DNA of 33,216 nt, taken from contig DATCTN010000023.1 in the NCBI GenBank assembly GCA_036567965.1, positions 1 to 33,216 of the forward strand, written 5' to 3'. A program made the translations under genes and the position numbers. Shown in pieces: positions 4,069 through 33,216 of the stretch. The notes beneath the pieces are model-generated. The model ran no database searches. It saw only the letters and a program-made list of their open reading frames with translations, and had not been told where the DNA came from. Positions within the stretch are counted from its first letter, which is position 1; each line of letters opens with the position of its first letter. This stretch comes from Candidatus Kryptoniota bacterium (GTDB taxonomy: Bacteria; Bacteroidota; Ignavibacteria; Kryptoniales; JAKASW01).

Positions 4069-5979
4069 TTATTTTACAAACATCATTTTCTTAACCGCCT
4101 GGAAGCGCCCGGCTTCGATACGGCAGAAGTAAACGCCGCTCGGGAACCGATCAGCGTTCCATATTACTGAGTGATCTCCGGGAGCAAAAACACTTTCGGC
4201 CAGAGTTGCCATTTCCACGCCCAGAACATTATACACTTTGAGCGTCACGAATGATTTTTCAGGAAGCGAAAAACTGATCGTCGTTGAAGGGTTGAATGGA
4301 TTCGGGTAATTCTGATTCAGCGAGAAAGTCTTCGGAAGGTATTTTCCGCTCACCGGAACCCCGTCGACAGGGCCTTCGATAACTCTGCGGCGGGCCGCCG
4401 GCACGAGCGTGTCTGCAGCTGCGGCGTAGGCGTATACTGCCTGGAATTCTGTCGTGTCAGGCATGACGTGAGGATCCACGACGGTCATTCCCATTTGCGG
4501 TGCGATGACACCTGATATCATTCCAAGAACAAATTCATTTGAAGTGACGGTGTACATCTTGGTTGGATTGATCGCAGCACCGCCGACGTTTACCGAGTAC
4601 ACACGCTGACCGGGATTTTGACCTGCAACGTACGAATATCTCATTCCGGAAACCTGCATGAAGAACTCGTCGTTCGCTTCTATTGTCCCGAGAGTGTACT
4701 CGAGACCTTTTATCAGATCTTCGCCGGAGAGTTTAAATGTCGCAAGCCGGTAACCGAAACCGTTATCCGTGTTGTAGCCGTAACTTATCATTCTATAAAT
4801 GTCCTGCCCGGTGACCGGTCCATGATGCAGAGGCTGAGCCGTCGATCCGCCCGCGGTAATCGCGATGTCTGTTCCCGTGAGCGCACGAAAAGCGTCCGTC
4901 ACTAGATCGCCGACAGGGGTGTCGTGCAGTCCGGGATTCGATAGGGAATCCGCGACCTCGGTGAAATCGCTCTTCACGTAACTCGTCTTGTTGAAAATCA
5001 TATTATAAATATCCTGGCCGACCACGGATTGCATTCCGGCGTCGAGGCCGTCGACGATTGCCGAGATGGTTTGATCTTCGGGGATAGTGTTATCGAGATG
5101 GATCAGCTGATAATCAAGAAGGTGCGCCCTCCCGGAAGTGATGCGCAGGCGGAGTTTCCCCGCGTATTCATAAAACGCGCCTGCCTGCACGATCCATGTC
5201 GTATCCGACGACGGATTGACCACCGGTACCGGCTGCGTCAGAACATAATGGTCATGGCCGCCGACGATCACGTCTATCCCGGGGACGTAAGAGGCCACTG
5301 CCTCGTCGAATGCCAGCCCGAGATGAGACAGAAGAATTACGACTCCGCACCCTTTGTTCTTCAACGTATCGACATACGCCGCTGCCGTCTGGATGAAGTT
5401 CGTGTCGACAAAGACGGGTGCCGGGAGCGAAAGCAGATTCGTCTCAGGAGTGGTGAGACCGATGATTCCGACCTTTAGTCCTCCGAGAGTCTTAATCGTG
5501 TAAGGCTTCACGTACTTGTGAAGGGCTTGAAGTGTGTCCGGCGGATAAACCAGGTTAGCGGAGAGAACAGGAAATGCCGCCGAGGTGTCAAATACTGAGG
5601 AGAGCTCGAAAGCGAAAACATCCGGCGTGAGATCGAACTCGTGATTTCCCACCGTCATCGCATCAAGGCCAAGTTGCTGCAGGATCGACAGCTCCGGCAT
5701 TCCAAGGTAAGCATTAAAATAAACGTCGCCTATGGAGAAATCGCCCGCATGAAGGAACATTACATTCGGTTCGGTCTCCCTGGCGTTCTTCAGGACTGTG
5801 GCGACTCTCGCAATACCACCGACCGTGCCATGAAGACTGGCGTCCCGAGGGCCGAGAGGTGAGAGGTTCGAATGCGAATCGTTCACATGGATGATTGTTA
5901 TCGTGTCCGTCTGGGCCACAGCAGTGATCCATGACATCGCGATAACCAGCGCGAGCCGCATTGCGGTTTTGATAATCAT
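4069..5979 (-). CDS. 5'-nucleotidase / metallophosphoesterase (UshA-like) with T9SS sorting domain
   Basis: 636 residues from ATG 5979, chosen because GGGGG lies 5-9 nt upstream and a signal peptide follows at once (MIIKTAMRLALVIAMSWITA, then VAQ). An earlier ATG at 6069 would bury the signal. The metallophosphatase domain shows all metal motifs: D34-x-H36 (HVNDSHSN), HAGD at 77-80, GNHEFD at 111-116, SHLG at 218-221 and GGHDH at 240-244. A 5'-nucleotidase C-terminal domain follows (GDLVTDAFRALTGTDIAIT; GYNTDNGFGY). The tail is a T9SS domain (NQNYPNPFNPSTTISFSLP ... GVYFCRIEAGRF). The family hydrolyses extracellular nucleotides or UDP-sugars to nucleosides and phosphate. Here it should act on the cell surface, consistent with phosphate or nucleoside scavenging. 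Confidence 0.93.
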   Translation of the reverse strand: MIIKTAMRLALVIAMSWITAVAQTDTITIIHVNDSHSNLSPLGPRDASLHGTVGGIARVATVLKNARETEPNVMFLHAGDFSIGDVYFNAYLGMPELSILQQLGLDAMTVGNHEFDLTPDVFAFELSSVFDTSAAFPVLSANLVYPPDTLQALHKYVKPYTIKTLGGLKVGIIGLTTPETNLLSLPAPVFVDTNFIQTAAAYVDTLKNKGCGVVILLSHLGLAFDEAVASYVPGIDVIVGGHDHYVLTQPVPVVNPSSDTTWIVQAGAFYEYAGKLRLRITSGRAHLLDYQLIHLDNTIPEDQTISAIVDGLDAGMQSVVGQDIYNMIFNKTSYVKSDFTEVADSLSNPGLHDTPVGDLVTDAFRALTGTDIAITAGGSTAQPLHHGPVTGQDIYRMISYGYNTDNGFGYRLATFKLSGEDLIKGLEYTLGTIEANDEFFMQVSGMRYSYVAGQNPGQRVYSVNVGGAAINPTKMYTVTSNEFVLGMISGVIAPQMGMTVVDPHVMPDTTEFQAVYAYAAAADTLVPAARRRVIEGPVDGVPVSGKYLPKTFSLNQNYPNPFNPSTTISFSLPEKSFVTLKVYNVLGVEMATLAESVFAPGDHSVIWNADRFPSGVYFCRIEAGRFQAVKKMMFVK

Positions 5980-6217: not shown

Positions 6218-7201
6218 TTAGCTCGGGAGCCAGCCGTTTTTCCTGTACCAGTCATATGTCATGGCGATTCCCTCGTCGAGTGGAATTTTTGGCTGGAAAT
6301 CCAGGATCCGCCGGGCTTTTTCAATCGAACATGTCCATGCGGTCTGCGCTGCTTCTCTCGCCTTTTGCACGTTGAAGAGAGTTGCTGCGCCAGTGCATTT
6401 GCCGACAGCACCTGCCACGGCTCCAACTACGTAACCCATGTATTCAGGAATCCGGACCTTCACCGGGTGAACGTGCTCGACGAGCGCGATCGTGTTGCAT
6501 ATTTCTTCTGTCGAGTAATTTTTGTCGCTGCCGAGAAGGAAGATTTCTCCCTCGGCCAGATTGCTTCCTGCCGCAAGGATGATACCATCAACAAGATCTG
6601 AGACGTAAACCATGTTCAGGTATTTCCTGGTTCTGCCGAAGATCAGTCCTATGTGAAGCCTGATCGTCTTGTAATATTGGTAGAGGTCCCTGTCTCCGGG
6701 TCCATACACGGCAGCGGGTCTGATGACTGTGGCGGGCAGCCTGTCCGCCGCCCGCAGCACTTCGAGTTCAGCCATCATTTTGCTCTTACCATAATGCGAG
6801 ACGGGGTGATACTCGGCTGACTCGGTGATTTCTTCTCCGTTACGACGAGGTCCTATTGCTGTAAGACTGCTGATGCATATGAACCTTTTCAGATGCGGCG
6901 ACTTTAAGCAAGCTTCGACGAAATGTTTCGTAGCCAGATAATTGCCTTCGTAATAGTCGTTGGTTCTTTTTGCTCTAGTAACTCCGGCCAGGTGAAAGAT
7001 CATTTCCGCACCGTCTAGGTGGCGTTGGTATGTACTCGGCTCGTTCAGATCGCATTCGACCAGTTTCACGCCGGACTCTTCAAACCTTGCGGCATTCGCG
7101 CGGTCCTTAGCCAGGCAGGTGATGTCGTGGCCGCACTCGTGAAGGCGATTGATGAGGTGAGTTCCGATGAACCCCGTTCCTCCTGTCACGATTGTTTTCA
7201 T
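6218..7201 (-). CDS. NAD(P)-dependent epimerase/dehydratase (extended SDR)
   Basis: 327 residues. The N-terminus is the Rossmann nucleotide loop TGGTGFIG (6-13). The catalytic set of extended SDRs is present: S111/S112 (CISSLTAIGP) and Y137-x-x-x-K141 (HYGKSK). RPAAVYGPGD is the usual substrate-side motif. Members act on nucleotide sugars, sterol-like or dihydroflavonol-like substrates; the family alone does not tell which. The start has a good ribosome site (GAGGAA 7-12 nt upstream). It is the last gene of the minus-strand run, 20 nt after the PAP2 gene. It is a distant paralogue of the SDR at 8876-9880, so two related redox or epimerisation steps may occur in the same pathway. Confidence 0.88.
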   Translation of the reverse strand: MKTIVTGGTGFIGTHLINRLHECGHDITCLAKDRANAARFEESGVKLVECDLNEPSTYQRHLDGAEMIFHLAGVTRAKRTNDYYEGNYLATKHFVEACLKSPHLKRFICISSLTAIGPRRNGEEITESAEYHPVSHYGKSKMMAELEVLRAADRLPATVIRPAAVYGPGDRDLYQYYKTIRLHIGLIFGRTRKYLNMVYVSDLVDGIILAAGSNLAEGEIFLLGSDKNYSTEEICNTIALVEHVHPVKVRIPEYMGYVVGAVAGAVGKCTGAATLFNVQKAREAAQTAWTCSIEKARRILDFQPKIPLDEGIAMTYDWYRKNGWLPS

Positions 7202-7221
7202 TTTCGCTTCCTCGCGTTCTT

Positions 7222-8151
7222 TTAAGTCTCTCCAAGAGTTTCTTTATAAGTGGAGTCTTTGAATTCAAATGCGAAGATTCTTTTGACGGCAGTTGCAACG
7301 ACGGGAGAAAGATAGACAGCGACAATACCGACAATTATCCCTGTAAGCATGTCCGCAGCGTAGTGGTACCTGCAGTAGACAGTTGCCGGGAAGACAGCAA
7401 GCAGAATCGGCGCGACAAGGAAGAAATATTTCTTGTTGTATTTGAATGACAACATCATCATTGCCGCTGCTACAGCACAATGAGCGCTCGGGAGACTTTC
7501 GCCGGGGAGGTGCAGGTTCACTCTCACCCATTCGCCGCAAGCGGTGAAGAAGCCTCCCTGCAGCGGTACCGAATACTGGTTCGGGTCGAAGCGGAGCGGC
7601 CCGGCAACCGGGAATGTGACGAACCCGATGTCACACAGAATATTTGCCAGAGATATTGCGACAAGATAATCAAGCGCGGCGGGTCTGCCCGATTTCATGT
7701 AACACGCAAAGGCAGTCGTAAATATCAAGAGCCCGTAAATTACATATGCGAACATCAAGCCTTCGGTCAATGCCGGTGACATAAATTTTTGGAGATACAC
7801 TGAGGGCTCATCGCCCATCAAACTTCTTTCAAATGCGGCGAGGGAACTATCGAGCCAGCCTCTAAAGAAGATGTGCTGCATCTCGCCGACCATTTGATAG
7901 GCGAAACCGTATAGTCCGATCGTCGCGACGATGAGCGGAGTGATTGAGTACTTTTCCGGGAGACGAGACAGCATCCAGTAGCTGCAGATGCAGAGCGCAT
8001 CCGCCGCCAACAGTTTGTGCAGGAGCGCGTCATGATTTTCGATTCTTGTCCCGGCAAGGAGTGCGAGCACAGTAAGGAGGAACAGGAATCCGCTTCCCAA
8101 AACCGCGACCGTTTTCAAACCGCCCTGTGTATCGTAATCAAGATTCTGCAT
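7222..8151 (-). CDS. PAP2-superfamily membrane protein (inositol-phosphorylceramide synthase-like)
   Basis: 309 residues with six or so hydrophobic segments (for example 13-34, 71-88, 132-150, 162-182, 243-258, 268-290). The PAP2 active-site elements are visible: LPSAH at 220-224 and RYHYAAD at 261-267 (H263 and D267). This form, with R-Y-H-Y-x-x-D directly after a transmembrane strand, resembles the PAP2_3/AUR1 group more than classic lipid phosphatases. Enzymes of this group dephosphorylate lipid phosphates or transfer phospho-head groups onto ceramide or diacylglycerol at the membrane surface. It starts 2 nt after the stop of the CPBP gene and is followed 20 nt later by an SDR, so it is surely co-transcribed with them. 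The lipid substrate is unknown. Confidence 0.83.
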   Translation of the reverse strand: MQNLDYDTQGGLKTVAVLGSGFLFLLTVLALLAGTRIENHDALLHKLLAADALCICSYWMLSRLPEKYSITPLIVATIGLYGFAYQMVGEMQHIFFRGWLDSSLAAFERSLMGDEPSVYLQKFMSPALTEGLMFAYVIYGLLIFTTAFACYMKSGRPAALDYLVAISLANILCDIGFVTFPVAGPLRFDPNQYSVPLQGGFFTACGEWVRVNLHLPGESLPSAHCAVAAAMMMLSFKYNKKYFFLVAPILLAVFPATVYCRYHYAADMLTGIIVGIVAVYLSPVVATAVKRIFAFEFKDSTYKETLGET

Positions 8152-8153
8152 GG

Positions 8154-8879
8154 TCAGCCGATCCTCACGCTACTGATGACCACGAAAAAGTCGGTTGTTA
8201 CGCCGATCAAGAAATGAAGAATGAACGGCCAGAGGATAGACTTTGTGCGGAGCGCCATCATGCCGAAGAGGATGCCGCCTGCGATGGAAGCGAAGAGCTC
8301 GCCCCCCGGACCACCGATGTGCCACATGCAGGACGGGATTGTCTGGATGCAAATTGCCAGGTTGTCTCCGACACTCCGGCGGAGGCCGAACAGAAGGAAT
8401 CCCCAGAAGAAAAACTCCCATGCGGGGTAAAAGAAAATCCCGCGTAACGATTCGAATCTTGCGAAGGCATGTAGGGAATTCCCGGCGGACTTGTCGTAAG
8501 GGAACGCCATCCGCATTTCCGGATTGAAGGAAGAAGGGTAAAGGAGCAGGAGAGCTATCAACGGAAAGAGGATCAACACAGTCATGGCACCATCTCTCCA
8601 ATTGCCTGCCGTGATTCCGTATTCTCTTAATCCTTCGTGGAAAAGGTAACGGATAATCAGAGCCGGCATTACGCCGAACAAAATAAACAAACCGGCGAAC
8701 ATGACAGCCACGTCGGACCTGATGCCGAGAATATTTCCTGAGGACGAATGAGTCCCAAGCCACATGAAATATTTGTGGGCTGCAGGAACTAGCGCCGCCA
8801 GGATCAAAATCACCGAGGGTTTGAAATCGTCGGAGCCCGTGAAGGTTTTTAAGCGGGCGATTTCAGATTTGTATGTCAT
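8154..8879 (-). CDS. CPBP (CAAX-protease-like) membrane protein with altered active site
   Basis: 241 residues from ATG 8879; this start overlaps the upstream SDR stop as ATGA, while the in-frame ATG at 8918 would overlap by 43 nt. Several transmembrane segments are apparent (about 22-40, 56-79, 98-114, 147-165, 197-210, 215-236). The CPBP/CAAX-protease hallmark EE-x-x-x-R appears here as W154-E155-F-F-F-W159, so one glutamate and the arginine are replaced. The two downstream histidines are kept: MWH187 and LH222 with D230. CPBP members include prenyl-protein proteases and bacteriocin-immunity proteins; the changed motif makes protease activity uncertain. The context suggests a role in membrane lipid or envelope processing. 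Confidence 0.7.
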   Translation of the reverse strand: MTYKSEIARLKTFTGSDDFKPSVILILAALVPAAHKYFMWLGTHSSSGNILGIRSDVAVMFAGLFILFGVMPALIIRYLFHEGLREYGITAGNWRDGAMTVLILFPLIALLLLYPSSFNPEMRMAFPYDKSAGNSLHAFARFESLRGIFFYPAWEFFFWGFLLFGLRRSVGDNLAICIQTIPSCMWHIGGPGGELFASIAGGILFGMMALRTKSILWPFILHFLIGVTTDFFVVISSVRIG

Positions 8880-9880
8880 AAATTTGCCGTGATGTAAGTC
8901 CAGTTGTGATTTATCCAATCGACAGTCGCCTCGAGTCCTTGCTTCAGCGGGGTGATCGTGTATCCAAGTTCATGATGTGCTTTCTCGCTTGAGGACGCCC
9001 AGTCGAGCAAAAATGTCTTTGCCCATTCCGGCGTTATCCTCGGATAACCGTTGAATAATTTTGCTCTCGTCAGTTCGCAATAAGCGATCGCGACCGAAAT
9101 GGTGGCCGGAACATGAATCAGGAAATATTTCCTGCCGGTGATTTCTGAAACGAGATTGAAGAAAGCGTCGTATGATATGTTTTCTCCACCGAGTATGTAG
9201 CGGCTTCCCGATATCCCGTTTTCCATTGCGAGCACCAGACCTTTTACGACATCGTCGACGAATGCGTAATTCCCGATCGCGTTCCCGTCACCCGGAACGA
9301 CACGCCATTTCCCGGTCATGTAAAGTGCAATTAGTTTTGTCGCGGAATTCGCTTCGGTCAATAGACCCGGTCCGAAGACACGGGTCGGATGCACGGTCAC
9401 CAATTCGAGTCCGCTGCTGCCGTACTCAGAAGCAACCTTGTCGGCTTCAGCTTTTGATTTCTCATAGTCGGTCAGAAGTTGTCCATGGCGGACGGTGCTT
9501 TCAATGACGGGGGACCCGTTGGACGGTCCGATTGTCATGATCGTAGATGTGTGCAAGACTCTGTCCACTCCGGCTCGCATTGAGGCCCTTATGATGTTCG
9601 CGAACCCGTCGACGTTCATTCTCGAAAAATCAGATTTGTCACGCGACCAGTTCCTTGCGTACGCCGCGAGATGATATACGCGCTTGCATCTGTGAGCTGC
9701 CGCGTAGAGACTTTCAGGGTTCAGGAGATCGCCGTAGCAAATCGCCGCGCCGATCCGACGAAGTTCAGACGTGTCGGACGTCGGTCTGCATAATGCCCTC
9801 ACTTTTTCGCCGCGCTCGACAAGGGTTCTCACAAGGTGTCTCCCGATGAATCCTGTCGCGCCGGTTACCAGTACAGTCAT
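8876..9880 (-). CDS. NAD(P)-dependent epimerase/dehydratase, HpnA/dihydroflavonol-reductase-like
   Basis: 334 residues. It has the extended-SDR nucleotide loop TGATGFIG (6-13), D51-L between strand 3 and helix 3, S112/T113 and Y139-x-x-x-K143 (DYEKSK) as catalytic residues, and HPTRVFGPG. The overall pattern, including RPTSDTSEL near residue 32-40, resembles the 'hopanoid-associated sugar epimerase'/dihydroflavonol-4-reductase branch. That suggests a lipid- or sugar-linked redox step, but the substrate is not determinable here. The gene begins with a 4-nt ATGA overlap with the DUF3108 gene and ends with another ATGA overlap with the CPBP gene, so all three are translationally coupled. Confidence 0.88.
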   Translation of the reverse strand: MTVLVTGATGFIGRHLVRTLVERGEKVRALCRPTSDTSELRRIGAAICYGDLLNPESLYAAAHRCKRVYHLAAYARNWSRDKSDFSRMNVDGFANIIRASMRAGVDRVLHTSTIMTIGPSNGSPVIESTVRHGQLLTDYEKSKAEADKVASEYGSSGLELVTVHPTRVFGPGLLTEANSATKLIALYMTGKWRVVPGDGNAIGNYAFVDDVVKGLVLAMENGISGSRYILGGENISYDAFFNLVSEITGRKYFLIHVPATISVAIAYCELTRAKLFNGYPRITPEWAKTFLLDWASSSEKAHHELGYTITPLKQGLEATVDWINHNWTYITANL

Positions 9881-10767
9881 TTTTCGCCTCTCCTTACGAT
9901 CGCGATTGTGTCGGTGGACCTCGATGCGACTGGTGGGACCCAGCCCTCACGCGTGAAAGACTCAAGCTCAACCCTGACACTCCCGACTGCAATCTTCATC
10001 TCGACGAGGAGCGGTACAGCCGCAGAGTCGGCACTTGTCCAGCCGGTCATCTTTCCATTCATCCCCGCGGAATGAGAGTCGGACCAGTCTCCGGTTGTTT
10101 CAAATCTGTGTGCAAGAACCGGTTCGTCGGACAGTCCGATAGTTATCTTCTCGATTTCTTTATGGAAGATTATCTGAGTCTTCTTCAGGCAATTTTGCAT
10201 GATGAGCGGAACAGTTAGCCGATATCCTGAACCTGATAGGGCTCGGACAAACATCATAAATCCGAGCGCGTCGAAGCATTGCTCTTCGCAATAAATTTTT
10301 GTGGTGGTTGTGTCTTTGCCGTCGTCTATGCCTGTCATCGTTTCGATGCTCGTGCAAGAATCATAGGAGAAATCCGCACCGCTTCTTGCGCTGCTGTTGT
10401 CTATGAATCTGAAATCGCAGTTTCGGGGATTATGTGAGGAGAGTGTCGCCCGGTTAATCAGGTCCACGTTCACGAACGGGAGTCCGGCAGCGGAGCGGGC
10501 TCGTGCGACGAGCCTGTACAGCTGCGGGTCTTGCTGACTCACTCGCTCCTGATACATGAAAACACTACCGAGTCGGACAAATCCCCACTTCACTTTGAAC
10601 TGCAGTTGCTCTCCGACTTTGAAGGGCGCTTCATTGTAGTTCGAGTTGTTCACATACCACTGAGCCTGAGAAACCTGCAAAAGGACCACGAGAAGAAAAA
10701 CCGACCGCACGGCTGCAATCAAAGACTTGTGACCTTGTTTTCTCACGTTTCTTGGATTTGTGTTCAT
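9877..10767 (-). CDS. Exported DUF3108-family protein
   Basis: 296 residues from ATG 10767, selected because GAGGG lies about 10 nt upstream and a signal peptide follows (AAVRSVFLLVVLLQVSQAQ). ATG 10788 is an alternative that overlaps the preceding micropeptide stop. The mature chain has the DUF3108 pattern: FKVGEQLQFKVKWGFVRLGS near the N-terminus, then FDALGFMMFVRAL, and the end block GKMTGWTSADSAAVPLLVEM followed by KIAVGSVRVEL. DUF3108 proteins are periplasmic or outer-membrane-facing and of unknown function. It is encoded between an ABC transporter and lipid-type enzymes, so a periplasmic lipid-carrier or sensor role is a reasonable guess, no more. Confidence 0.78.
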   Translation of the reverse strand: MNTNPRNVRKQGHKSLIAAVRSVFLLVVLLQVSQAQWYVNNSNYNEAPFKVGEQLQFKVKWGFVRLGSVFMYQERVSQQDPQLYRLVARARSAAGLPFVNVDLINRATLSSHNPRNCDFRFIDNSSARSGADFSYDSCTSIETMTGIDDGKDTTTTKIYCEEQCFDALGFMMFVRALSGSGYRLTVPLIMQNCLKKTQIIFHKEIEKITIGLSDEPVLAHRFETTGDWSDSHSAGMNGKMTGWTSADSAAVPLLVEMKIAVGSVRVELESFTREGWVPPVASRSTDTIAIVRRGEK

Positions 10768-10780
10768 CGAAGTCACGCCC

Positions 10781-10918
10781 TCATTCATATCGGAGAAACG
10801 CACCCGCGCCGGATTTCAACAATGCCTTCACTGCTCTGAAAAGAATTCCGCCAAGAACCGCTGCTCCACCGGCTGCCAGGAGCAGGTATGTTGCTGATGA
10901 CTTCAGTATTGTATCCAT
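10781..10918 (-). CDS. 45-residue single-span membrane micropeptide
   Basis: Reading back from ATG 10918 gives MDTILKSSATYLLLAAGGAA, then VLGGILFRAVKALLKSGAGA and FLRYE, 45 residues with one glycine/alanine-rich hydrophobic span (about 10-28) and a basic amphipathic tail. A strong Shine-Dalgarno (GAGGAAAG) lies 3-10 nt upstream. It sits in the 203-bp space between the ABC ATPase stop (10970) and the DUF3108 start and ends 13 nt before the latter. Small membrane peptides of this kind often accompany transporter or lipid-enzyme complexes. No known family is recognised; conservation would decide whether it is real. Confidence 0.55.
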   Translation of the reverse strand: MDTILKSSATYLLLAAGGAAVLGGILFRAVKALLKSGAGAFLRYE

Positions 10919-10969
10919 GACTTTCCTCGTTTGTAGATCTTGATTCGATTTTCTGGAATCTCGTTTTCA

Positions 10970-11746
10970 TTACGCTTCAATTTGATTCCTGTCGACTACT
11001 TCCGTGTCACCGATTTGTAAGCGATCCGTAAAAGTTTTGGCGGATCGGTCCACATCGATAGCGCGCAATCTTCCGTCCTCGAGCCTGAAAACCACATCGG
11101 CGTATTCTGTAAGTCTCAGATCGTGGCTCGCGACAATGACGCAGCGGTTATCCGTTTTCGCGATCGAATGGAGAATTTTTATTATGCCGAATCCCTGCGC
11201 GGAATCAAGAGATGCTGTCGGTTCGTCTGCGAGGAGAAGAGACGGCGTGTTCACAGATGCGCGGGCGATCGCGACTCGCTGTTTCTCCCCCTGACTCAGG
11301 TTCGTGGGATAGCGGCCGGCCAGATGACCGGCGCCGACTTTTTCAAGAGCCGCTCGCGCATTCCATTTTGTCGAGATGCCGCTCTCTCCTAAAAACTCCG
11401 ATGGGAGGGCGACATTCTCGACCACGGTCAACCAATCGAGGAGAAGAAAATTCTGGAATATGAACCCGATCTTTTCTGCCCTGAAAGCTTGCACGCTTTT
11501 GCGATCGACACTTGCAAGATCTGTCCCATTGATTCGAATTGTTCCCGATGTAGGTTTCACAAATCCTGCAATGAGCATCAGCAATGTTGTTTTCCCGCTC
11601 CCACTTGGACCCAGGATAAGCGAAAGTTGTCCTCTGCGGAAAACCGCCGATGTCTCGATCACTGCGTTGATTTTGTGGTGATCCTCCGGGTATGTTTTGG
11701 AAACCCTTTCCATCAGGACGACTTCAGTTGGGTCGTTGACTCTCAT
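10970..11746 (-). CDS. ABC transporter ATP-binding protein (LolD/MacB class)
   Basis: 258 residues from ATG 11746, which has GGAGG 7 nt upstream and overlaps the permease stop as ATGA. A longer ORF from 11941 lies inside the permease gene and is rejected. Walker A is GPSGSGKT (46-53), the signature is LSQGEKQRVAIARA, Walker B is LLLADEPTASLD, and the switch histidine is in VASHD. The Q-loop reads FIFQNFLLLDWLTVVENVAL. This is the class of ATPase that powers lipoprotein release (LolD) or MacB-type efflux rather than import. With the single adjacent FtsX-like permease it should form a homodimeric-permease transporter for a lipid, lipoprotein or peptide substrate. Confidence 0.92.
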   Translation of the reverse strand: MRVNDPTEVVLMERVSKTYPEDHHKINAVIETSAVFRRGQLSLILGPSGSGKTTLLMLIAGFVKPTSGTIRINGTDLASVDRKSVQAFRAEKIGFIFQNFLLLDWLTVVENVALPSEFLGESGISTKWNARAALEKVGAGHLAGRYPTNLSQGEKQRVAIARASVNTPSLLLADEPTASLDSAQGFGIIKILHSIAKTDNRCVIVASHDLRLTEYADVVFRLEDGRLRAIDVDRSAKTFTDRLQIGDTEVVDRNQIEA

Positions 11747-12867
11747 GTGAATGCCTCCGAAGGATAAATTTTTCTGATTCGACGGATGGATATGATCGCA
11801 CTTATATAACCAACTGCGATTGAAATGGCCTGTACCAGGATGATCTGCTGGAGATTTGTTTCGGTAGTGAGCTCCGGAAATAGACTCTCGAGAATTGTCA
11901 TGAGCGGAAAAAAGAAAACGAGTGTCGAAAGACTCCCGCAAAGCGAGAGGACAAGAGCTTGACCGGTTATAAATCGGGGTAGAAAATTTGAGGGTGAACC
12001 TAAAGCCATCATGACAGCGAAACTCCTGCGGTTTTCGGTAATATTCATTGTGAGAATTGCAGTGAGTATCGTGCCCAGCACAAACGCCGAGATGAATGCA
12101 ATGATCCAGAGTATCGGAAGGAAACCCGCGCGCATTTCATTTAGATTGTTTCTCGTGAATTCTCCCTGCGTGTAGACTTCGATTCCCGGGATTGTCTTCT
12201 TGATGCGGGTGACTACCGAATCGATGTCGTTCGATTTCGACACAGACACTAAATAACACGATACGATGCCCGGATATCCAAGTATCTCCTGTGCTTGCGC
12301 GAGTGTCGTGAAAGCATACTGGATCACGAACATGTTCGTGCCTGAGGAAATCCCGACGACCTTCAGATTTTCCTTGTGGATCGTCACGTAATCCCCAATT
12401 CGTATGTTGCATTTGTCCGCGAACGAGCGGTCAAGAACGATCTCGCCCGATTGTTTTACGCGTCTGCCGGATACAATGCCGGGCGGACCGCCGCGCTTGT
12501 CAGGTGCCAGGTATCCGGCGATTTCTATTGTGGAGGTGTGTCCGTTTGCCCTCGCCTGTCCGAGGACGTACAAGACGGGTTCGACGGTATCGACACCGTC
12601 GATCTTCTTCAGCTTCTCACCCATTGTCGAAAAGAGGACCGACGACCCGCGCATTATGTTTGTGACCCCGTCCTGGAGGACCCAGAGGTCAGCGCTGTTT
12701 CGATTTATGTAAGTCATTGAACCCACCTCTACGCCGCGATACACAGAGAGAAGGAAGAGCATTAACGTGGCGCAAAGACTGCCTGACCCGATCGTGAACA
12801 GGGTCCTGACCGGCTGCTTCATGACCGACTTCAGGGAGTACCTCAATGTGTTTTTCATAATTGACAT
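11743..12867 (-). CDS. FtsX/MacB-like ABC transporter permease
   Basis: 374 residues. Topology is that of the MacB/LolE superfamily: a transmembrane helix near residues 22-43, a large periplasmic domain (about 44-248, with the MacB-PCD-like stretch IEIAGYLAPDKRG and SGEIVLDRSFADKCNIRIGD), then three helices at about 250-276, 300-325 and 340-362. The cytoplasmic loop contains ITENRRSFAVMMALGSP, typical of FtsX domains. ATG 12867 is used; ATG 12858 is equally possible. It is the first gene of the minus-strand run and is coupled to the ATPase by a 4-nt overlap. A separate promoter could not be identified in the 197-bp divergent region it shares with efp. Confidence 0.9.
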   Translation of the reverse strand: MSIMKNTLRYSLKSVMKQPVRTLFTIGSGSLCATLMLFLLSVYRGVEVGSMTYINRNSADLWVLQDGVTNIMRGSSVLFSTMGEKLKKIDGVDTVEPVLYVLGQARANGHTSTIEIAGYLAPDKRGGPPGIVSGRRVKQSGEIVLDRSFADKCNIRIGDYVTIHKENLKVVGISSGTNMFVIQYAFTTLAQAQEILGYPGIVSCYLVSVSKSNDIDSVVTRIKKTIPGIEVYTQGEFTRNNLNEMRAGFLPILWIIAFISAFVLGTILTAILTMNITENRRSFAVMMALGSPSNFLPRFITGQALVLSLCGSLSTLVFFFPLMTILESLFPELTTETNLQQIILVQAISIAVGYISAIISIRRIRKIYPSEAFT

Positions 12868-23685: not shown

Positions 23686-26148
23686 ATGAAAAGGGAATTC
23701 ATAGCACATCTTCGTAAGACTGGCGAGCCGCAATATCTTTGGACACACCTTGAAGAAGCGTCAAAGCTTGCAGGGCAATTTGCTGACAAGATTGGCTTGA
23801 AGGAATGCGGTGAACTGATTGGACTGCTTCACGATTTGGGTAAAGCCAGCCAAGAGTTCCAAAACTATATTCTCTCCGCAGAAGGGAAGATTGATCCAGA
23901 TGCTGATGAATATGTTGATGCAAAAGCGCAGAAAGGAAAAGTAGATCACTCCAGTGCGGGCGCGCAAGTTATACACAAAAGGTTGTCGACCATGGGAAAA
24001 GAAGGAGCAATTGTCGGAGAATTCCTCTCTTTGTGCATCGCATCCCACCATTCAGGCATGATCGATTGTCTCGCGCCAGATGGCTCAAACAACTACGAAC
24101 GGCGGATGAGAAAGCCAGAAGAGAAAACACATGGCGAAAAGGCTTATTCGAATTTGGATGATGCTGAGCGTGAAAAAGTAGAGAAGTTCTTTTCGGATAA
24201 CCTTATTGAACAACTCTCAGCTAAGTTGCAGTCTCTCAAGGAAGAAAACGATTCCAAACAAAGTTTGATATTCAAGTTCGGCCTTTTAGCGAGATTTCTG
24301 TTTAGTTGTCTAATCGACGCAGACAGACTCAGTACCGCTGATTTTGAATTTCCGAGAAATGATAAGATTAGAAACCAGGGCGAGTATGTTGCATGGGAGG
24401 CATTGATTGAACGATTTAACGCCAAGAAGTTTGATAACAAAAACAGGGTTGACGTTTTGCGCGATGCAGTTTCCCGTGAATGCCTAGAATTCTCCAAGAG
24501 ACCGAAAGGGCTATATCAATTAACTGTTCCAACGGGCGGAGGTAAGACCTTTGCGAGCTTGCGGTTTGCTTTGAACCATGCTGAGTTACACAAGATGGAT
24601 CGGATCATATACATCATTCCATACACATCAATCATCGACCAAAACGCCGACGAGGTCAGAAAGATTTTGGAAGAGAAAGATGATAATGGGAAGTATTTGG
24701 ATCGGGTTGTCCTAGAGCACCATTCCAACTTGACTCCAGACGAAGAAACGCGCCGACAGAATCTTCTTTCCGAAAATTGGGATGCACCGATTGTCTTCAC
24801 AACAAGCGTTCAGTTTCTCGAAGCGTTGTTCGCGTCTGGTACGAGAAGCGCTCGAAGGATGCACCAGCTTGCAAACGCCGTAATAATCTTCGATGAGGTA
24901 CAGACCCTTCCAGTTCGGTTTGTGCATATGTTTAACGTTGCCATTCGTTTCTTGGTTAAGGGATGTGGGTCAACCGTTTTACTATGCACCGCCACTCAAC
25001 CATTATTGGACAAAATTGAGATTAAAGAACGAGCCCTTCAACTTTCAAAAGACCAGCAAATAATTCAGAATGTGGAATCTCTATTTCAAAATTTAAAACG
25101 CGTCGAAGTTTATGACCAGCGAAAGGCTGCGGGGTGGTCCGAAAGCGAAATAATAAGTCTCGCGCAACAAGAGACTCAAAAGAACGGCAGCGTCCTTATT
25201 GTCGTCAACACAAAAACATCGGCGAAAAATCTCTATCAGCAATTCAAGAGCGCGAACATAAAAGACATTTTTCACTTAAGCACCGACATGTGTCCTGAGC
25301 ATCGGTTGAATGTGCTGAACAATATCAAGGAACGATTAAAGAACAATCAGGCGACGATTTGTGTCAGCACCCAATTGATAGAAGCTGGTGTAGATATAGA
25401 CTTTGGATCAGTTATTAGATACTTAGCTGGACTTGATTCCATCGCACAGTCAGCGGGACGCTGCAACAGGCATGGCTTAAGAACAAAATACGGAAATGTA
25501 TTCATTATAAATCCACAAGACGAGAATCTCAACCGCCTAGAAGAAATCAGAATTGCTGCTGAAGACGCCCAACGAGTGTTAGGCGAATTTAAAGAATCAC
25601 CTGAGCGATTTAAGAATGATATTCTGTCGCCGGCGGCAATGGAGCAATACTATAAATATTATTTCTTTGACCGCAGAGACAAAATGAATTATCCAGTACC
25701 AAGTAAGTCGCCAGTCGGAAGAGAAGACAATCTCTTTGATTTGCTTTCGACCAATCCAAAATCCGTTCAGGAAAATCAACGAACTCACGACACTCCGTTG
25801 ACCATTTCGTTGTGGCAATCATTTCAGACAGCATCAAAGGCATTCCGAGCAATTGATTCGCCAACAATGGGAGTCATCGTCCCTTATGGAGAAGAAGGCA
25901 AACAGATAATAAATGAACTATGCTCAACGTCTGAAGTTGACAAGGAGTACAAACTCTTGAAGAGAGCCCAAAGATTTTCTGTGAATGTTTATGAAAATAT
26001 TTTTAGTAATCTCACTAAAGATGGAATCATTAAAGAGGCTCAAGCTGGCATAGGAATTTTCTATTTGGATTATCAGTACTACAGCAGCGAATTCGGTTTA
26101 AGCAGCCAAATTGTAAATGAAATGGAAACGTACATAGTGGGAAGGTGA
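23686..26148 (+). CDS. cas3: CRISPR-associated nuclease-helicase Cas3 (type I-C)
   Basis: 820 residues, AAGGTG 7-12 nt before the ATG. Cas3 is recruited to Cascade-bound DNA, nicks the displaced strand and degrades it while unwinding. The N-terminal HD domain shows H21 (WTHLEEA), LLHDLGK with H49-D50, and ASHHSG. The SF2 helicase part has Walker A VPTGGGKT (about 280-287), DEVQ at about 403 (IIFDEVQTLP), LLCTATQP, and motif V/VI in STQLIEAGVDIDFGSVIR and AQSAGRCNRHG. HD and helicase are fused in the usual order. It is first in the operon, followed after 3 nt by cas5. Base composition is visibly A+T-richer than radC and guaA. Confidence 0.97.
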   Translation: MKREFIAHLRKTGEPQYLWTHLEEASKLAGQFADKIGLKECGELIGLLHDLGKASQEFQNYILSAEGKIDPDADEYVDAKAQKGKVDHSSAGAQVIHKRLSTMGKEGAIVGEFLSLCIASHHSGMIDCLAPDGSNNYERRMRKPEEKTHGEKAYSNLDDAEREKVEKFFSDNLIEQLSAKLQSLKEENDSKQSLIFKFGLLARFLFSCLIDADRLSTADFEFPRNDKIRNQGEYVAWEALIERFNAKKFDNKNRVDVLRDAVSRECLEFSKRPKGLYQLTVPTGGGKTFASLRFALNHAELHKMDRIIYIIPYTSIIDQNADEVRKILEEKDDNGKYLDRVVLEHHSNLTPDEETRRQNLLSENWDAPIVFTTSVQFLEALFASGTRSARRMHQLANAVIIFDEVQTLPVRFVHMFNVAIRFLVKGCGSTVLLCTATQPLLDKIEIKERALQLSKDQQIIQNVESLFQNLKRVEVYDQRKAAGWSESEIISLAQQETQKNGSVLIVVNTKTSAKNLYQQFKSANIKDIFHLSTDMCPEHRLNVLNNIKERLKNNQATICVSTQLIEAGVDIDFGSVIRYLAGLDSIAQSAGRCNRHGLRTKYGNVFIINPQDENLNRLEEIRIAAEDAQRVLGEFKESPERFKNDILSPAAMEQYYKYYFFDRRDKMNYPVPSKSPVGREDNLFDLLSTNPKSVQENQRTHDTPLTISLWQSFQTASKAFRAIDSPTMGVIVPYGEEGKQIINELCSTSEVDKEYKLLKRAQRFSVNVYENIFSNLTKDGIIKEAQAGIGIFYLDYQYYSSEFGLSSQIVNEMETYIVGR

Positions 26149-26151
26149 ATC

Positions 26152-26862
26152 ATGGAAAACAAAGTCGGATTTAAAGTTTATGGCAAATACGCTCTCTTCA
26201 CTGATCCACTGACAAAGATCGGTGGAGAGAAATGCTCATATCAGATCCCAACTTACGAAGCATTGAAAGGGATTATTAGTTCGGTCTATTGGAAGCCGAC
26301 GATCATCTGGATTATTGACAGAGCGCGAGTGATGAATCGGATCAAAACGCAGACCCGAAACGCCAAGCCAATCAAATATAGTGGTGGGAACGACCTTTCT
26401 ATTTATACATATCTTGCCGATGTCGAATACCAGGTGCAGGCGCACTTCGAATGGAACATGCATCGTGAGGATATGGCAAACGATAGAAATGAAAACAAAC
26501 ATTACTTCATCGCCAAACGTATGATAGAACGCGGTGGACGGCGTGACGTCTTTCTTGGCACGAGAGAATGTCAGGGCTATGTCGAGGTTTGCAAATTCGG
26601 AGAAGGACAAAGCTTCTATGATAAATATGGTGAGCTTTCGTTCGACTTGATGTTCCACGGATTTGATTATCCCGACGAATTGGGAAAGGATGAATACTAT
26701 TCCCGTTTTTGGCGGCCGAAGATGAAAGATGGAATCATTGAGTTCATCAGACCCGAAAAGTGCACTATCCGTAAGTTTGTTAGACCGATGACAGCGCACC
26801 CTCCACAGTCGATTGGTTTTGAGGAAGAAGGTTTGTTAGAAGGTTACGAGGAAAGGAGCTGA
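26152..26862 (+). CDS. cas5c: Cas5c/Cas5d: crRNA-processing and Cascade subunit
   Basis: 236 residues, strong GGAAGG site 8-13 nt before the ATG. In type I-C systems Cas5 replaces Cas6: it cuts pre-crRNA at the base of the repeat hairpin and stays on the 5' handle. The start VGFKVYGKYALFTDPLTKIG is diagnostic for the Cas5d RAMP fold. The residues reported as catalytic in the Bacillus halodurans enzyme (Y46, K116, H117) fall at the same numbers here: SSVYWKP with Y46, and ENKHYF with K116-H117. Processing activity is therefore expected, and no cas6 is present in the locus. It is 3 nt downstream of cas3 and 3 nt upstream of cas8c. Confidence 0.96.
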   Translation: MENKVGFKVYGKYALFTDPLTKIGGEKCSYQIPTYEALKGIISSVYWKPTIIWIIDRARVMNRIKTQTRNAKPIKYSGGNDLSIYTYLADVEYQVQAHFEWNMHREDMANDRNENKHYFIAKRMIERGGRRDVFLGTRECQGYVEVCKFGEGQSFYDKYGELSFDLMFHGFDYPDELGKDEYYSRFWRPKMKDGIIEFIRPEKCTIRKFVRPMTAHPPQSIGFEEEGLLEGYEERS

Positions 26863-26865
26863 GCG

Positions 26866-28839
26866 ATGGCTTGGATACAAAAGCTTTATGAGACATACGA
26901 GGCATGTTCCTCAATGGTAGGTTATTCTGGTGAAGAGGGAAAAAGACCATTGCTTCCAATTTGTCACATCACCGCGCAAGCGAATATTGAGGTGACGCTT
27001 GGTAGGAATGGCGACTTCTTGAGAGCATCGGTCATTCCCGATCCCCATGAAGCAACGACCATAATTCCATGCACAGAAGAATCAGCGAGCAGGGCAGGGA
27101 AAAAACCCGAATGTCATCCACTTTGTGACAATCTGCAATATGTGGCTGGTGATTTCACGAAATATGGCGGGGTGGTTACTTCGGGGTTCGCAAAAGATCC
27201 TGAGGAGCCATACCGTGACTATGTCAAGATTTTGAGTGACTGGTGTTCATCGAAATTTGGTCACCAAAAGGCGAAAGCGATTTTGAATTACGTCAAGAAG
27301 AAAAGATTGATCCATGACTTAGTGAACCACAAAATCCTCTTTCTTGGAAGCAATAAGAAATTCTTGCATAAAAAAGAACGAAAGAAGGATAAGAACCGAT
27401 CAGATATTTTCGATGTAGTCAGCGACCAGGGCGATGCGTTCGTCCGTTGGCGCGTCGAAATTCCAGGAGAACTCGAAACAAATCTCTCGAAGGATAATAC
27501 TCTCTGGCACAGTTGGACTCAATATTATTTGAGCACGAAAGAAAAGAAGCCCCTGTGTTACGTTACAGGCAACGATGCATTGTTATCGACTCAACATCCT
27601 AAATATATACGAGCAAAAGGTGATGGTGCTAAACTCATTTCTTCTAATGACACGAGTGGCTTCACTTTCAGAGGACGTTTCTTAACTGATGCACAAGCTT
27701 GCGGTGTTAGCCTTGAAGTGACACAAAAAGCACACAATGCACTGATATGGCTCGTTGGTAGGCAAGGCAAGGTTTTTTGGGTAAAAGGTGATGGTGGAAG
27801 AAAACAACCTGCGTTGACTGTGGTAGCCTGGGCAACTTCCAATCAGAAAATTCTTCAACCGACTGAGAGCGCTTTCGATATCTTTCCAGAATTTGCTGAA
27901 CTACCAAGCGATGAAGCGGTGACGGCATACACAGCGCAAGACATTGCTCTAAAATTGCGAAATAAAATACTCGGGTATAAAGTTGAAATTGGAGAGACAA
28001 AAGATGTACAGGTGATGGCTATGGATTCGGCATCGAAAGGGCGATTGGCTATAACTTATTATCGCGAACTGAAGGGTTCAGATTATTTGGAGCGAATAGA
28101 GAAATGGCACCGTGAGTGTGCTTGGATTCACAACTATGGATATAACGAGGAGAAGCATAAACAATTTTCCTTTGTCGGCGCACCAGCACCTGTCGACATC
28201 GCAGAAGCCGCTTATGGTGAAAGGGTCGATGATAAGTTGAAAAAAACCACGGTTGAACGCCTTCTTCCTTGCATCATCGATGGTCAACCGATACCGAGAG
28301 ACATCGTAGAGTCCACGGTGCGTCGAGCGTCGAATAGAGTCGCATTGGAAAATTGGCAATTCAACAAGACACTGAGCATCGCTTGTGCTCTCTATAGAAA
28401 ATTTATCGATGATAAACAAAAGGAGAACTATTCTATGGCACTCGATCCAAAGAGAAAGACGAGAGACTATCTATACGGGCGACTCTTGGCTATTGCAGAT
28501 AGTCTCGAAAATTGGGCTTTAAACAAAGCAAACGAAGATAGGCAGACTACCTCTGCTCGCCTGATGAATCGCTTTGCAGAGCGACCATTTAGCACGTGGA
28601 GAACGATTGAACTCGCGCTTTCGCCATACAAGGCACGGCTTGGCGGAAAATCGAAGAAGCGGCAAAGAATGATTGATGAAGTGAAAGACCTCTTTGAGCC
28701 GAATGATTTCACTAACGACAAGCGATTGAATGGAGAATTCCTGCTTGGATATTCATGCCAGCGGGAGTTTTTGAGAAATAACTCAGAAACGCTCAAAGAA
28801 AAAGAAGAAGTGAACGAAGAAAATTCAAGAAATAATTAA
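26866..28839 (+). CDS. cas8c: Cas8c (Csd1), large subunit of type I-C Cascade
   Basis: 657 residues with AAAGGAG about 9 nt before the ATG. Cas8c reads the PAM and opens target DNA within Cascade. The N-terminus MAWIQKLYETYEACSSMVGY and the segment LLPICHITAQANIEVTL are standard Csd1. PHEATTIIPCTEESASRAGK, HPLCDNLQYVAGDF, FRGRFLTDAQACGVSLEVTQ and LIWLVGRQG are also family blocks. The C-terminal part contains its own start for Cas11c (28435). It is the marker gene for subtype I-C. The stop lies 12 nt before cas7. Confidence 0.96.
   Translation: MAWIQKLYETYEACSSMVGYSGEEGKRPLLPICHITAQANIEVTLGRNGDFLRASVIPDPHEATTIIPCTEESASRAGKKPECHPLCDNLQYVAGDFTKYGGVVTSGFAKDPEEPYRDYVKILSDWCSSKFGHQKAKAILNYVKKKRLIHDLVNHKILFLGSNKKFLHKKERKKDKNRSDIFDVVSDQGDAFVRWRVEIPGELETNLSKDNTLWHSWTQYYLSTKEKKPLCYVTGNDALLSTQHPKYIRAKGDGAKLISSNDTSGFTFRGRFLTDAQACGVSLEVTQKAHNALIWLVGRQGKVFWVKGDGGRKQPALTVVAWATSNQKILQPTESAFDIFPEFAELPSDEAVTAYTAQDIALKLRNKILGYKVEIGETKDVQVMAMDSASKGRLAITYYRELKGSDYLERIEKWHRECAWIHNYGYNEEKHKQFSFVGAPAPVDIAEAAYGERVDDKLKKTTVERLLPCIIDGQPIPRDIVESTVRRASNRVALENWQFNKTLSIACALYRKFIDDKQKENYSMALDPKRKTRDYLYGRLLAIADSLENWALNKANEDRQTTSARLMNRFAERPFSTWRTIELALSPYKARLGGKSKKRQRMIDEVKDLFEPNDFTNDKRLNGEFLLGYSCQREFLRNNSETLKEKEEVNEENSRNN
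28435..28839 (+). CDS. cas11c: Cas11c, internal in-frame product of cas8c
   Basis: ATG 28435 lies in frame with cas8c (codon 524) and is preceded by AAAAGGAG at 28418-28425, nine nt upstream, a better Shine-Dalgarno than many true starts in this window. It would give a 134-residue helical protein (MALDPKRKTRDYLYGRLLAI ... NSRNN). Internal translation of a Cas11-like small subunit from the 3' part of cas8c is established for type I-C systems, where it lines the belly of Cascade. The signal is seen in the sequence; translation here is inferred. Confidence 0.72.
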   Translation: MALDPKRKTRDYLYGRLLAIADSLENWALNKANEDRQTTSARLMNRFAERPFSTWRTIELALSPYKARLGGKSKKRQRMIDEVKDLFEPNDFTNDKRLNGEFLLGYSCQREFLRNNSETLKEKEEVNEENSRNN

Positions 28840-28851
28840 ACAAGGAGAGGG

Positions 28852-29754
28852 ATGATTAAAATGGACGCATTAAAAAACAAAATCGATTTCGCCGTCATTA
28901 TCAGCGTGAACAATGCAAACCCTAATGGAGATCCGCTAAATGGAAATCGCCCACGTGTAAATTATGATGGGCTTGGCGAGCTTTCCGATGTCTGTATTAA
29001 AAGAAAAATCCGAAACCGCTTGATGCAGGAGGGGCATTCAATCTTTGTCCAATCAGATGATAACAAAGTGGATAATTATCCGAGCCTTCGGGCAAGAGCA
29101 GATGGCGAGCTCAAGAAAGACGATTGGAAGGACGAGAAGAAATTCCGAGATGCCGTTTGCAAGAAATGGTTAGACGTGCGAGCATTCGGTCAAGTATTTG
29201 CATATAAAGGCGACTCAGAAGGTGAGGGAGTATCTGTGGGAATTCGCGGCCCAGTCTCTGTTCATCCAGCTTTTTCAATTTCTTCTGTCAATGATCGTGT
29301 TTCAAGCACGCAAATTACGAAGAGTGTAAGCGGTGAAGGAGAAGGGAAGAAGAAAGCATCGGACACAATGGGCATGAAGCATCGTGTTGACCATGGCGTC
29401 TATGTTTTCTATGGAAGCATGAATCCACAGCTTGCTGCGCCTCCTCGCGGGACAGGGTTTAGTGATGAAGACGCTGAAGCGATCAAGAAAGTGTTGAAGA
29501 CGCTTTTTAGAAATGATGAGTCCTCGGCCCGGCCTTCTGGTACGATGGAAGTTCACAAGGTCTATTGGTGGAAACACAATTCGAACAATGGTCAGTACTC
29601 ATCTGCTAAAGTGCATCGGTCTGTTTCGAAGAGGATCGGAGTCAAGGAGCGCATCACAGAACCGAAGAGTATTGACGATTATTCGATTCCTGAAAAATCC
29701 GAGATTGAAAAAGAACTTCCCGGCTTAAAATGTGAGGTTGTTGATGGTGAATAG
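28852..29754 (+). CDS. cas7c: Cas7c (Csd2), Cascade backbone subunit
   Basis: 300 residues. Cas7 copies polymerise along the crRNA spacer. The N-terminus DFAVIISVNNANPNGDPLNG and RPRVNYDGLGELSDVCIKRK is the standard Csd2/Csh2 beginning; VSVGIRGPVSVHPAF and GMKHRVDHGVYVFYGSMNPQ are further family blocks. AAGGAG lies at 28842-28847; ATG 28852 or ATG 28861 (three codons later) could be used, the latter giving a 13-nt spacing. It follows cas8c in the usual order. Confidence 0.96.
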   Translation: MIKMDALKNKIDFAVIISVNNANPNGDPLNGNRPRVNYDGLGELSDVCIKRKIRNRLMQEGHSIFVQSDDNKVDNYPSLRARADGELKKDDWKDEKKFRDAVCKKWLDVRAFGQVFAYKGDSEGEGVSVGIRGPVSVHPAFSISSVNDRVSSTQITKSVSGEGEGKKKASDTMGMKHRVDHGVYVFYGSMNPQLAAPPRGTGFSDEDAEAIKKVLKTLFRNDESSARPSGTMEVHKVYWWKHNSNNGQYSSAKVHRSVSKRIGVKERITEPKSIDDYSIPEKSEIEKELPGLKCEVVDGE

Positions 29755-29766
29755 GAACAATCAAGA

Positions 29767-31487: not shown

Positions 31488-31550
31488 AGAATTGTGAGAT
31501 GGATATTCTAGTCAGTCCGTTGCTCTGATGAAAACAAGGATAACAGTCAT

Positions 31551-31980: not shown

Positions 31981-33216
<1,236 letters not shown>

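Follow-up and report, generated by a model that had tools for sequence, protein, structure and literature searches.

A recurrent DUF3108-SDR-CPBP-PAP2 gene module in a Candidatus Kryptoniota genome, a candidate locus for finishing and exporting a long-chain lipid

Eight open reading frames (ORFs) lie head to tail on the minus strand, at 6218-12867, of a 33,216-nucleotide stretch of a Candidatus Kryptoniota bacterium (contig DATCTN010000023.1 of assembly GCA_036567965.1, positions 1 to 33,216; hereafter the window). They encode an ABC permease and its ATPase, a micropeptide, a DUF3108 protein, an extended short-chain dehydrogenase (SDR1), a CPBP membrane protein, a PAP2 protein and a second extended SDR (SDR2). 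The core of this locus is DUF3108, an extended SDR, CPBP and PAP2, often with a second SDR, and the grouping exceeds chance, since the set recurs in distant genomes. We give about even odds to the reading that its products finish a long-chain lipid and export it, the likeliest candidate being a sphingolipid of the ceramide type; in this reading we infer the reactions, the identity of the lipid and the direction of its transport.

Recurrence of the core module

The PAP2 protein was searched against 296 genomes of the phylum (G numbers denote genomes and L numbers loci). Orthologues were found in five of the 295 other genomes at E<1e-44, with the next match at 6.5e-17; 76 genomes of the phylum have some PAP2 match, and most of these hold only another kind of PAP2 protein. 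The orthologous gene adjoins those for DUF3108, SDR1 and CPBP in G132, G004 and G228, with SDR2 also present in G132, and it adjoins SDR1 and CPBP in G097 and G078. A CPBP profile run more widely, over GTDB genomes, yielded 245 stretches carrying the search pattern, 224 of them relatives, and the best 80 of these 224 loci were kept. Their record titles name Bacteroidota, Ignavibacteriota, Planctomycetota, Chloroflexota, Zixibacteria, Aminicenantes, Calditrichota and others. Genes within 400 nt of the CPBP gene on the same strand were scored as neighbours in the 79 loci with a scorable CPBP ORF; L056, in which CPBP and PAP2 were read as one ORF, was left out here and counted in the identity recount given below. 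Of the 79 loci, 64 have an SDR neighbour and 48 a PAP2 neighbour; 38 have both and 74 at least one of the two, the five loci with neither being L073, L075, L081, L102 and L130. For the 62 loci that extend 1.3 kb or more to each side, the corresponding counts are 53, 35, 30 and 58. Six loci share 80% identity or more with rows of the profile; without them, 69 of 74 have either neighbour. Eleven of the 80 loci have DUF3108 in the module, two of them (L085 and L088) from the same organism. Among 20 genomes of its order, that of the window is the sole carrier of the CPBP protein (E<=1e-20).

The same scoring was applied, for control, to 30 CPBP loci that a profile search had drawn from the phylum sample. 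None of the 22 weaker CPBPs (139-198 bits), a distant group chosen as control after it had been seen to lie apart, has an SDR or PAP2 neighbour. In three loci of this group that were inspected, the neighbour is a pdxJ-like gene. All of the eight best (248-385 bits) have one, a result whose weight is reduced because seven of the eight are profile rows found via PAP2 and only L141 (G196) is new. Two variations on the arrangement were also seen. A lipid A acyltransferase-like gene follows PAP2-CPBP-SDR in L121, L124, L125 and L128 (PF03279 in L121), and in the Chloroflexi loci L091 and L104 CPBP stands between a classical SDR (assigned by Pfam in L091) and two extended SDRs that follow it.

Association with serine palmitoyltransferase and the nature of the lipid

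The link to sphingolipids comes chiefly from gene neighbourhood. A gene for serine palmitoyltransferase (SPT) lies near CPBP and PAP2 in 11 of the 80 loci (ten from Bacteroidota, one from Calditrichota), and a GNAT gene does so in 15. Six loci (L094, L096, L097, L112, L115 and L129) carry SPT, GNAT, PAP2 and CPBP consecutively, in that order, on a single strand; SPT is opposite in direction in four of the 11 SPT loci, and in L131 an SDR2-type gene sits on its far side. The SPT protein of L112 scores 512 bits against the solved Sphingobacterium SPT versus 323 for the next family. In the genome of the window an SPT-type gene and a GNAT gene are neighbours on contig C21, and the module is on C23. 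This SPT-type gene product scores 401 bits against the Sphingobacterium enzyme, 288 against the next family and 240 against cysteate acyltransferase, and its best NCBIfam model is the SPT model NF047600 at 485 bits, below the cut-off of 640.

Co-occurrence was assessed with an SPT profile over 60 genomes, the line being placed in the gap between 489 and 440 bits. An SPT-type gene (at least 489 bits) is present in 35 of 37 genomes with a PAP2-bearing module and in 9 of 21 without PAP2 (Fisher p 2e-5, uncorrected for ancestry), or in 8 of 18 of the latter when contig-end cases are removed (p 7e-5). Two of the 35 positive genomes (those of L112 and L131) were known beforehand, and 30 of the 80 scan loci fall outside the test. 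The two misses are the genome of L092 and G097; in G097 the GNAT match ends at the contig end, beside a gene resembling the one that follows GNAT in the genome of the window. We regard this co-occurrence as weak evidence, confounded by ancestry, and the shared neighbourhood as the stronger part, because SPT-family matches occur in 295 of the 296 phylum-sample genomes with relatives such as KBL not separated, because G039 and G240 have clear SPT-type genes and no orthologous CPBP, and because no correction for ancestry was applied.

These last facts about SPT matches weigh against a sphingolipid role, as do several others. The 489-bit line was drawn only once the scores had been seen. The module of the window is not adjacent to SPT in its own genome, no SDR1-type module in the 80 loci shows SPT or GNAT in the 7 kb inspected on either side, and the operons adjacent to SPT hold a third SDR clade, SDR3. 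No SPT-type gene scored in 12 of the 21 genomes with a PAP2-less CPBP-SDR pair, although L109 and L120 among these have truncated SPT matches and the L089 genome is 1.6 Mb with its CPBP gene at a contig end. Other SDRs (on C27 and C19) and a second PAP2 protein on C7, of a kind common in genomes of the class, could serve sphingolipids in this organism. The PAP2 protein of the module reaches 17.9 of the 480 bits set as cut-off for NF052609, the model of phosphoinositol dihydroceramide synthase, and the structural matches of the DUF3108 protein to LolA, given below, are of middling Z. In four Planctomycetes genomes with CPBP-SDR1 (G310, G315, G341 and G343; loci L071, L078, L127 and L132), no SPT-level match was found, SPT-family domains occur in frames of 1080-1188 aa, and three of the four have tandem GNAT genes.

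The SDRs divide the module into two forms. In a tree of 93 SDRs, SDR1 (support 91/95, drawn open), SDR2 (100/100) and SDR3 (100/99) form separate clades. SDR1 and SDR2 are found together in the window, G132, L074, L085, L088, L100, L103 and L111. SDR3 is the clade that follows CPBP in many Bacteroidota loci, and SPT and GNAT turn up in modules of this form; the SDR3 gene is about 7 kb away in L094 and L096, and the tree has no SDR3 row from L082 or L083. The chief rival explanation follows from this division, because no SDR1-type module was seen beside SPT. It holds that the module tailors some other long-chain lipid (a keto-lipid, a capnine-type lipid or a glycerol lipid), that Bacteroidota recruited it to sphingolipid operons and that the line of the window kept the old lipid. 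Besides the clade pattern, in which SDR3 and once an SDR2-type gene are the only SDRs near SPT, it would account for the CPBP-SDR pairs in genomes where no SPT-type gene scored, and SDR3 itself has OleD (2-alkyl-3-oxoalkanoate reductase) as its best NCBIfam model (160 bits, cut-off 580). The presence of an SPT-type gene in nearly all genomes with PAP2-bearing modules, uncorrected for ancestry as it is, and the homology of CPBP and PAP2 across SPT and non-SPT settings speak for the ceramide-type lipid instead. We judge the rival to be clearly the less probable of the two, though a serious contender.

If the lipid is of the ceramide type, the pathway would begin in the cytoplasm, where the products of SPT and GNAT acyltransferase genes located elsewhere in the genome would make a keto-ceramide or a keto long-chain base. 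SDR1, and perhaps SDR2, would reduce or otherwise oxidise or reduce this keto-lipid. At the membrane, the PAP2 protein may add a phospho head group or strip a phosphate, by analogy with the AUR1-type BT_1522, and the CPBP protein may bind or position the lipid or a partner enzyme and would cut no peptide. The ABC pair of the LolCD/MacB-like kind, added in the genome of the window, could lift the lipid from the inner membrane, and the DUF3108 protein, as a LolA/LolB-like carrier, could ferry it over the periplasm. A broader proposal, which we hold more tentatively than any reading of the lipid given above and think rather doubtful, is that the nonproteolytic CPBP clade is a dedicated membrane part for sphingolipid-type lipids across several phyla that here, together with DUF3108 and the ABC pair, exports the lipid to the outer membrane.

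Locus layout and the genes outside the core

The initial annotation had described eight ORFs on one strand, overlapping by ATGA at three junctions and otherwise spaced by 2, 13, 20 and 51 nt, and all of this can be read directly from the sequence (Table 1). The overlaps are at the permease/ATPase (11746-11743), DUF3108/SDR1 (9880-9877) and SDR1/CPBP (8879-8876) junctions. The gaps separate ATPase from micropeptide (51 nt), micropeptide from DUF3108 (13 nt), CPBP from PAP2 (2 nt) and PAP2 from SDR2 (20 nt). The 13-nt gap holds for a DUF3108 start at ATG 10767; the alternative starts at ATG 10788 or GTG 10803 would overlap the micropeptide. Scans for promoters and terminators gave about as many hits as shuffled sequence (10 versus 7.7 and 11 versus 9.3). 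Among the best 25 matches of each of the eight proteins, no NCBIfam model reached its curated cut-off, so NCBIfam assigns none of them a named function.

Table 1. Genes of the locus in the window, in order along the minus strand
Gene	Coordinates	Strand	Family assignment
FtsX/MacB-type ABC permease (P0001)	11743..12867	-	Pfam MacB_PCD and FtsX
LolD/DevA/FtsE-type ABC ATPase (P0002)	10970..11746	-	Pfam ABC_tran
45-aa micropeptide ORF (P0003)	10781..10918	-	no Pfam or NCBIfam family over cut-off
DUF3108 protein (P0004)	9877..10767	-	PF11306, 40.4 bits (cut-off 26)
SDR1, extended SDR (P0005)	8876..9880	-	Pfam Epimerase, 127.5 bits
CPBP membrane protein (P0006)	8154..8879	-	Pfam Rce1-like PF02517, 34.3 bits (cut-off 22.4)
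PAP2_3 membrane phosphotransferase/phosphatase (P0007)	7222..8151	-	PAP2_3/PAP2; PAP2_3 44.7 bits (cut-off 27)
SDR2, second extended SDR (P0008)	6218..7201	-	Pfam Epimerase, 117.5 bits
UshA-like 5'-nucleotidase with type IX secretion C-terminal signal	4069..5979	-	Pfam Metallophos, 5_nucleotid_C and Por_Secre_tail

The ABC pair has a history of its own. Close relatives of the permease occur in nine of 118 other genomes of the class (10 places, at least 248 bits, with the next match at 45), and the ATPase, whose best NCBIfam model is LolD (TIGR02211, 180.2 bits against a cut-off of 307.75), adjoins the permease in all ten of the regions fetched. No match to DUF3108, CPBP, PAP2 or SPT was found in these ten regions, four of which are short stretches of 4.8 to 12 kb. 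Eight of the ten were legible, with Pfam run on the proteins of L243 and L250 and the others read from similar sequence. In L243, L245, L251 and partly L246, the pair lies near diacylglycerol-kinase-like, GNAT, PLP-decarboxylase and aldolase-domain genes, and in L247-L250 it lies near carbamoyltransferase, radical SAM and SDR genes. Because its relatives sit in such differing lipid- or natural-product-like clusters without the core module, the pair seems to travel among clusters of these kinds. The cluster ahead of the pair in L243 (9062-17475), with diacylglycerol-kinase-like, DUF3419 (confirmed by Pfam), GNAT-like, PLP decarboxylase and aldolase-domain genes, is possibly another lipid pathway.

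The micropeptide, which has a hydrophobic stretch, basic residues and a sub-threshold match to the LPXTG anchor (13.5 bits, cut-off 20), matched only its own place by tblastn in 114 loci, with the next E at 0.2, and is probably not a conserved part. The idea of a single eight-gene system was consequently set aside, the ABC pair and micropeptide not being conserved alongside the core in the loci examined. The initial annotation had read all eight genes as one system that makes and moves a modified lipid and had held that finding them apart in relatives would count against it. The core stays together, whereas the ABC pair and the micropeptide do occur apart. The proposal of lipid synthesis and handling survives this division, given the recurrence of the core, the SPT/GNAT neighbourhood, the predicted LolA/LolB-like fold of DUF3108 and the lipid-like clusters around the ABC relatives. 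The differing histories of the ABC pair, the micropeptide and the module would also suit a locus of ordinary co-transcribed membrane genes with no common pathway, which we consider improbable in view of the adjacency of the core in distant genomes and its absence from the weaker control loci.

A ninth gene, absent from the gene list of the initial annotation, encodes a secreted-type 5'-nucleotidase and starts 238 nt downstream of SDR2. Its relatives (541-801 bits, the next match scoring 100) were found in the loci searched only at the module (L085, L088 and L111) or at the ABC pair (L243 and L244), and it belongs to the neighbourhood of the module. Farther along the window, at 23686-33216, CRISPR-Cas-like genes (cas3-, cas5-, cas8-, cas7-, cas4-, cas1- and cas2-like) are followed by repeat-rich ORFs, as read by eye from the first residues of the proteins.

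The SDR and PAP2 proteins

Both window SDRs score highest among NCBIfam models against HpnA (TIGR03466), SDR1 at 236.9 bits and SDR2 at 142.7, with a cut-off of 367.65; for each, lower scores came from OleD-type reductases and from models of named sugar epimerases. A profile of six SDR1 sequences has 3wj7 as its best PDB match (223 bits), and the YxxxK motif is invariant in the six. It had been foreseen that the SDRs might group with nucleotide-sugar enzymes of an unrelated pathway. This did not clearly come about, as HpnA is matched below its cut-off. The title of that model nevertheless reads hopanoid-associated sugar epimerase (hypothetical equivalog), and a nucleotide-sugar role for the SDRs is a less favoured reading.

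The PAP2 protein has a PAP2-superfamily score and carries the His/His/Asp motifs, PSxH and RxHYxxD being invariant in six sequences. A sequence search of solved structures returned just one weak match to a lipid-phosphate phosphatase (E 0.076). The comparison with BT_1522 of Bacteroides thetaiotaomicron rests on its being an AUR1 homologue required for phosphoinositol dihydroceramide (PMC9246714; this article and those below are cited from excerpts).

An HpnA-like SDR beside a PAP2 polyprenyl phosphatase could also belong to a polyisoprenoid or hopanoid pathway, and an amine-oxidase/desaturase-like gene does lie near the module in L044, on the opposite strand. No match to squalene-hopene cyclase (PF13243, the C-terminal family) was found in the genome of the window or in 10 high-quality genomes, and the match is missing in 28 of 32 genomes, with partial matches over the cut-off in G312, G319, G339 and G340. 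A polyisoprenoid had been among the lipids first suggested for this locus; the absence of a cyclase match in the genome of the window weakens that option for hopanoids only, and we consider the pathway as a whole quite improbable.

The CPBP and DUF3108 proteins

The CPBP protein had been described at the outset as altered, which was correct and extends beyond the window to its clade. In place of the EExxxR motif the clade has WExxxR, and the window protein has a further change of the Arg to Trp. All 30 loci recovered by the profile search of the phylum, seven of which are rows of the profile itself, have Trp for the first catalytic Glu (29 identified by pattern, L137 read separately), and the Arg is kept in 29 of the 30, the window alone having Trp there. 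In an alignment of 36 rows, every row keeps the second Glu and both His, and 33 have the Asp; the Trp is found in 36 of 36, partly by construction, since 35 rows come from a scan pattern requiring it. Trp-Glu was also observed in lower-scoring CPBP relatives within the score range of a related subgroup whose gene adjoins a pdxJ-like gene in L226, L227 and L229 (by eye).

The first Glu of EExxxR, together with a His, holds the catalytic water in myxosortase and Rce1 (PMC11980579), and because Trp replaces this water-activating Glu the clade is probably not a protease. The predicted structure of the window protein (pLDDT 93.8) matches the folds of SpdC (Z 15.3 over 202 residues, 4.2 A) and Rce1 (Z 13.4 over 193 residues, 4.0 A), the other rows listed scoring below 5; a sequence search of solved structures gave no match. 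SpdC has been judged almost certainly a nonprotease, and LnsB of Staphylococcus aureus, a CPBP relative without the catalytic residues, is required for lipoprotein N-acylation (both PMC7387801). Given the loss of the Glu, the SpdC/Rce1 fold and the precedents of SpdC and LnsB, a role as membrane scaffold or in lipid handling appears more likely by analogy than peptide cutting. A myxosortase-like protein-sorting system with the micropeptide as its CTERM-like substrate, for which the best NCBIfam match of CPBP (archaeomyxosortase MrtA, 74.6 bits, cut-off 200) and the anchor-like features of the micropeptide might be cited, was set aside as the least probable explanation of all, the catalytic Glu being missing across the clade, the Arg missing in the window and the micropeptide being an orphan.

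The DUF3108 protein has an N-terminal signal-like hydrophobic stretch (by eye) and a mostly beta model with a mean pLDDT of 77.7. Its best Foldseek match is DUF1849 (1.2e-6). VIA-align gives 17.2 for an unnamed sperm-axoneme chain, 14.9 for DUF1849 and 11.3 for a YmcC-like protein, with Z of 7.4-9.7 to LolA and about 7.5-8.2 to LolB, and a sequence search of solved structures gave nothing convincing. The protein is tentatively placed among LolA/LolB-like folds, outside the LolA family.

Comparison with known systems

The locus fits a plausible class, lipid biosynthesis, with a gene set that is undescribed. No published description of a DUF3108-SDR-CPBP-PAP2 set, or of a link between CPBP and sphingolipids, PAP2 or SPT, was found in a search that mostly left subscription journals outside, and nothing relevant on DUF3108 or on sphingolipids of Ignavibacteria was found among the top matches. 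In the excerpts of the literature at hand, the sphingolipid enzymes after SPT in Bacteroidetes were called uncharacterised in the 2022 study that characterises BT_1522 (PMC9246714), a ketosphinganine reductase was reported in the same year (PMC9278070), and Bacteroidota are stated to lack clustering of the Spt, bCerS and CerR genes (PMC11334938). The SPT-GNAT-PAP2-CPBP-SDR block of Bacteroidota and its DUF3108-bearing sister in the window supply candidates, open to test, for the reduction step, for attaching the head group and for carrying the lipid through the periplasm. They also suggest a lipid role for a widespread branch of CPBP proteins otherwise annotated as proteases.

Known systems offer counterparts for several of the components. 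The window CPBP protein shares the CPBP fold with the glutamic proteases Rce1 and MrtX and with SpdC and LnsB, members considered unlikely to be proteases, and its clade is set apart from Rce1 and MrtX by Trp at the first Glu of EExxxR, the window protein having lost the Arg as well. The inositol sphingolipid cluster BT_1522-1526 of B. thetaiotaomicron has an AUR1-like enzyme whose model the window PAP2_3 protein matches weakly, far below the cut-off, and the excerpt of its description names no CPBP, SDR or DUF3108 (PMC9246714). With LolCDE-LolA-LolB the window shares a LolD-like ATPase, an FtsX/MacB-type permease and, tentatively, the LolA/LolB-like fold predicted for DUF3108, but the ATPase falls below the LolD cut-off, there is one permease only, and the DUF3108 modules of the relatives examined have no LolCD-like ABC neighbour.

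A further comparison is with the Spt-bCerS-CerR ceramide pathway of Caulobacter (PMC11087976 and PMC11324152). SPT-type and GNAT-type genes are likewise present in the genome of the window and near the related module of Bacteroidota, and an SDR-type reductase step would be expected in both. CerR is described in these excerpts as NDUFA9-like, whereas the window SDRs best match HpnA. The route of sphingolipids to the outer membrane was stated in 2024 to be not known (PMC11324152). For Caulobacter the proposal, untested there, is that a possible flippase and second LptC/F/G copies serve transport, within a 17-gene region that is a different gene set (PMC11324152). The window locus instead has PAP2, CPBP, DUF3108 and a MacB/LolD-like ABC pair where Caulobacter has these Lpt-type candidates, and, if the export reading is true, it would fill a step for which they are the only candidates in the literature found.

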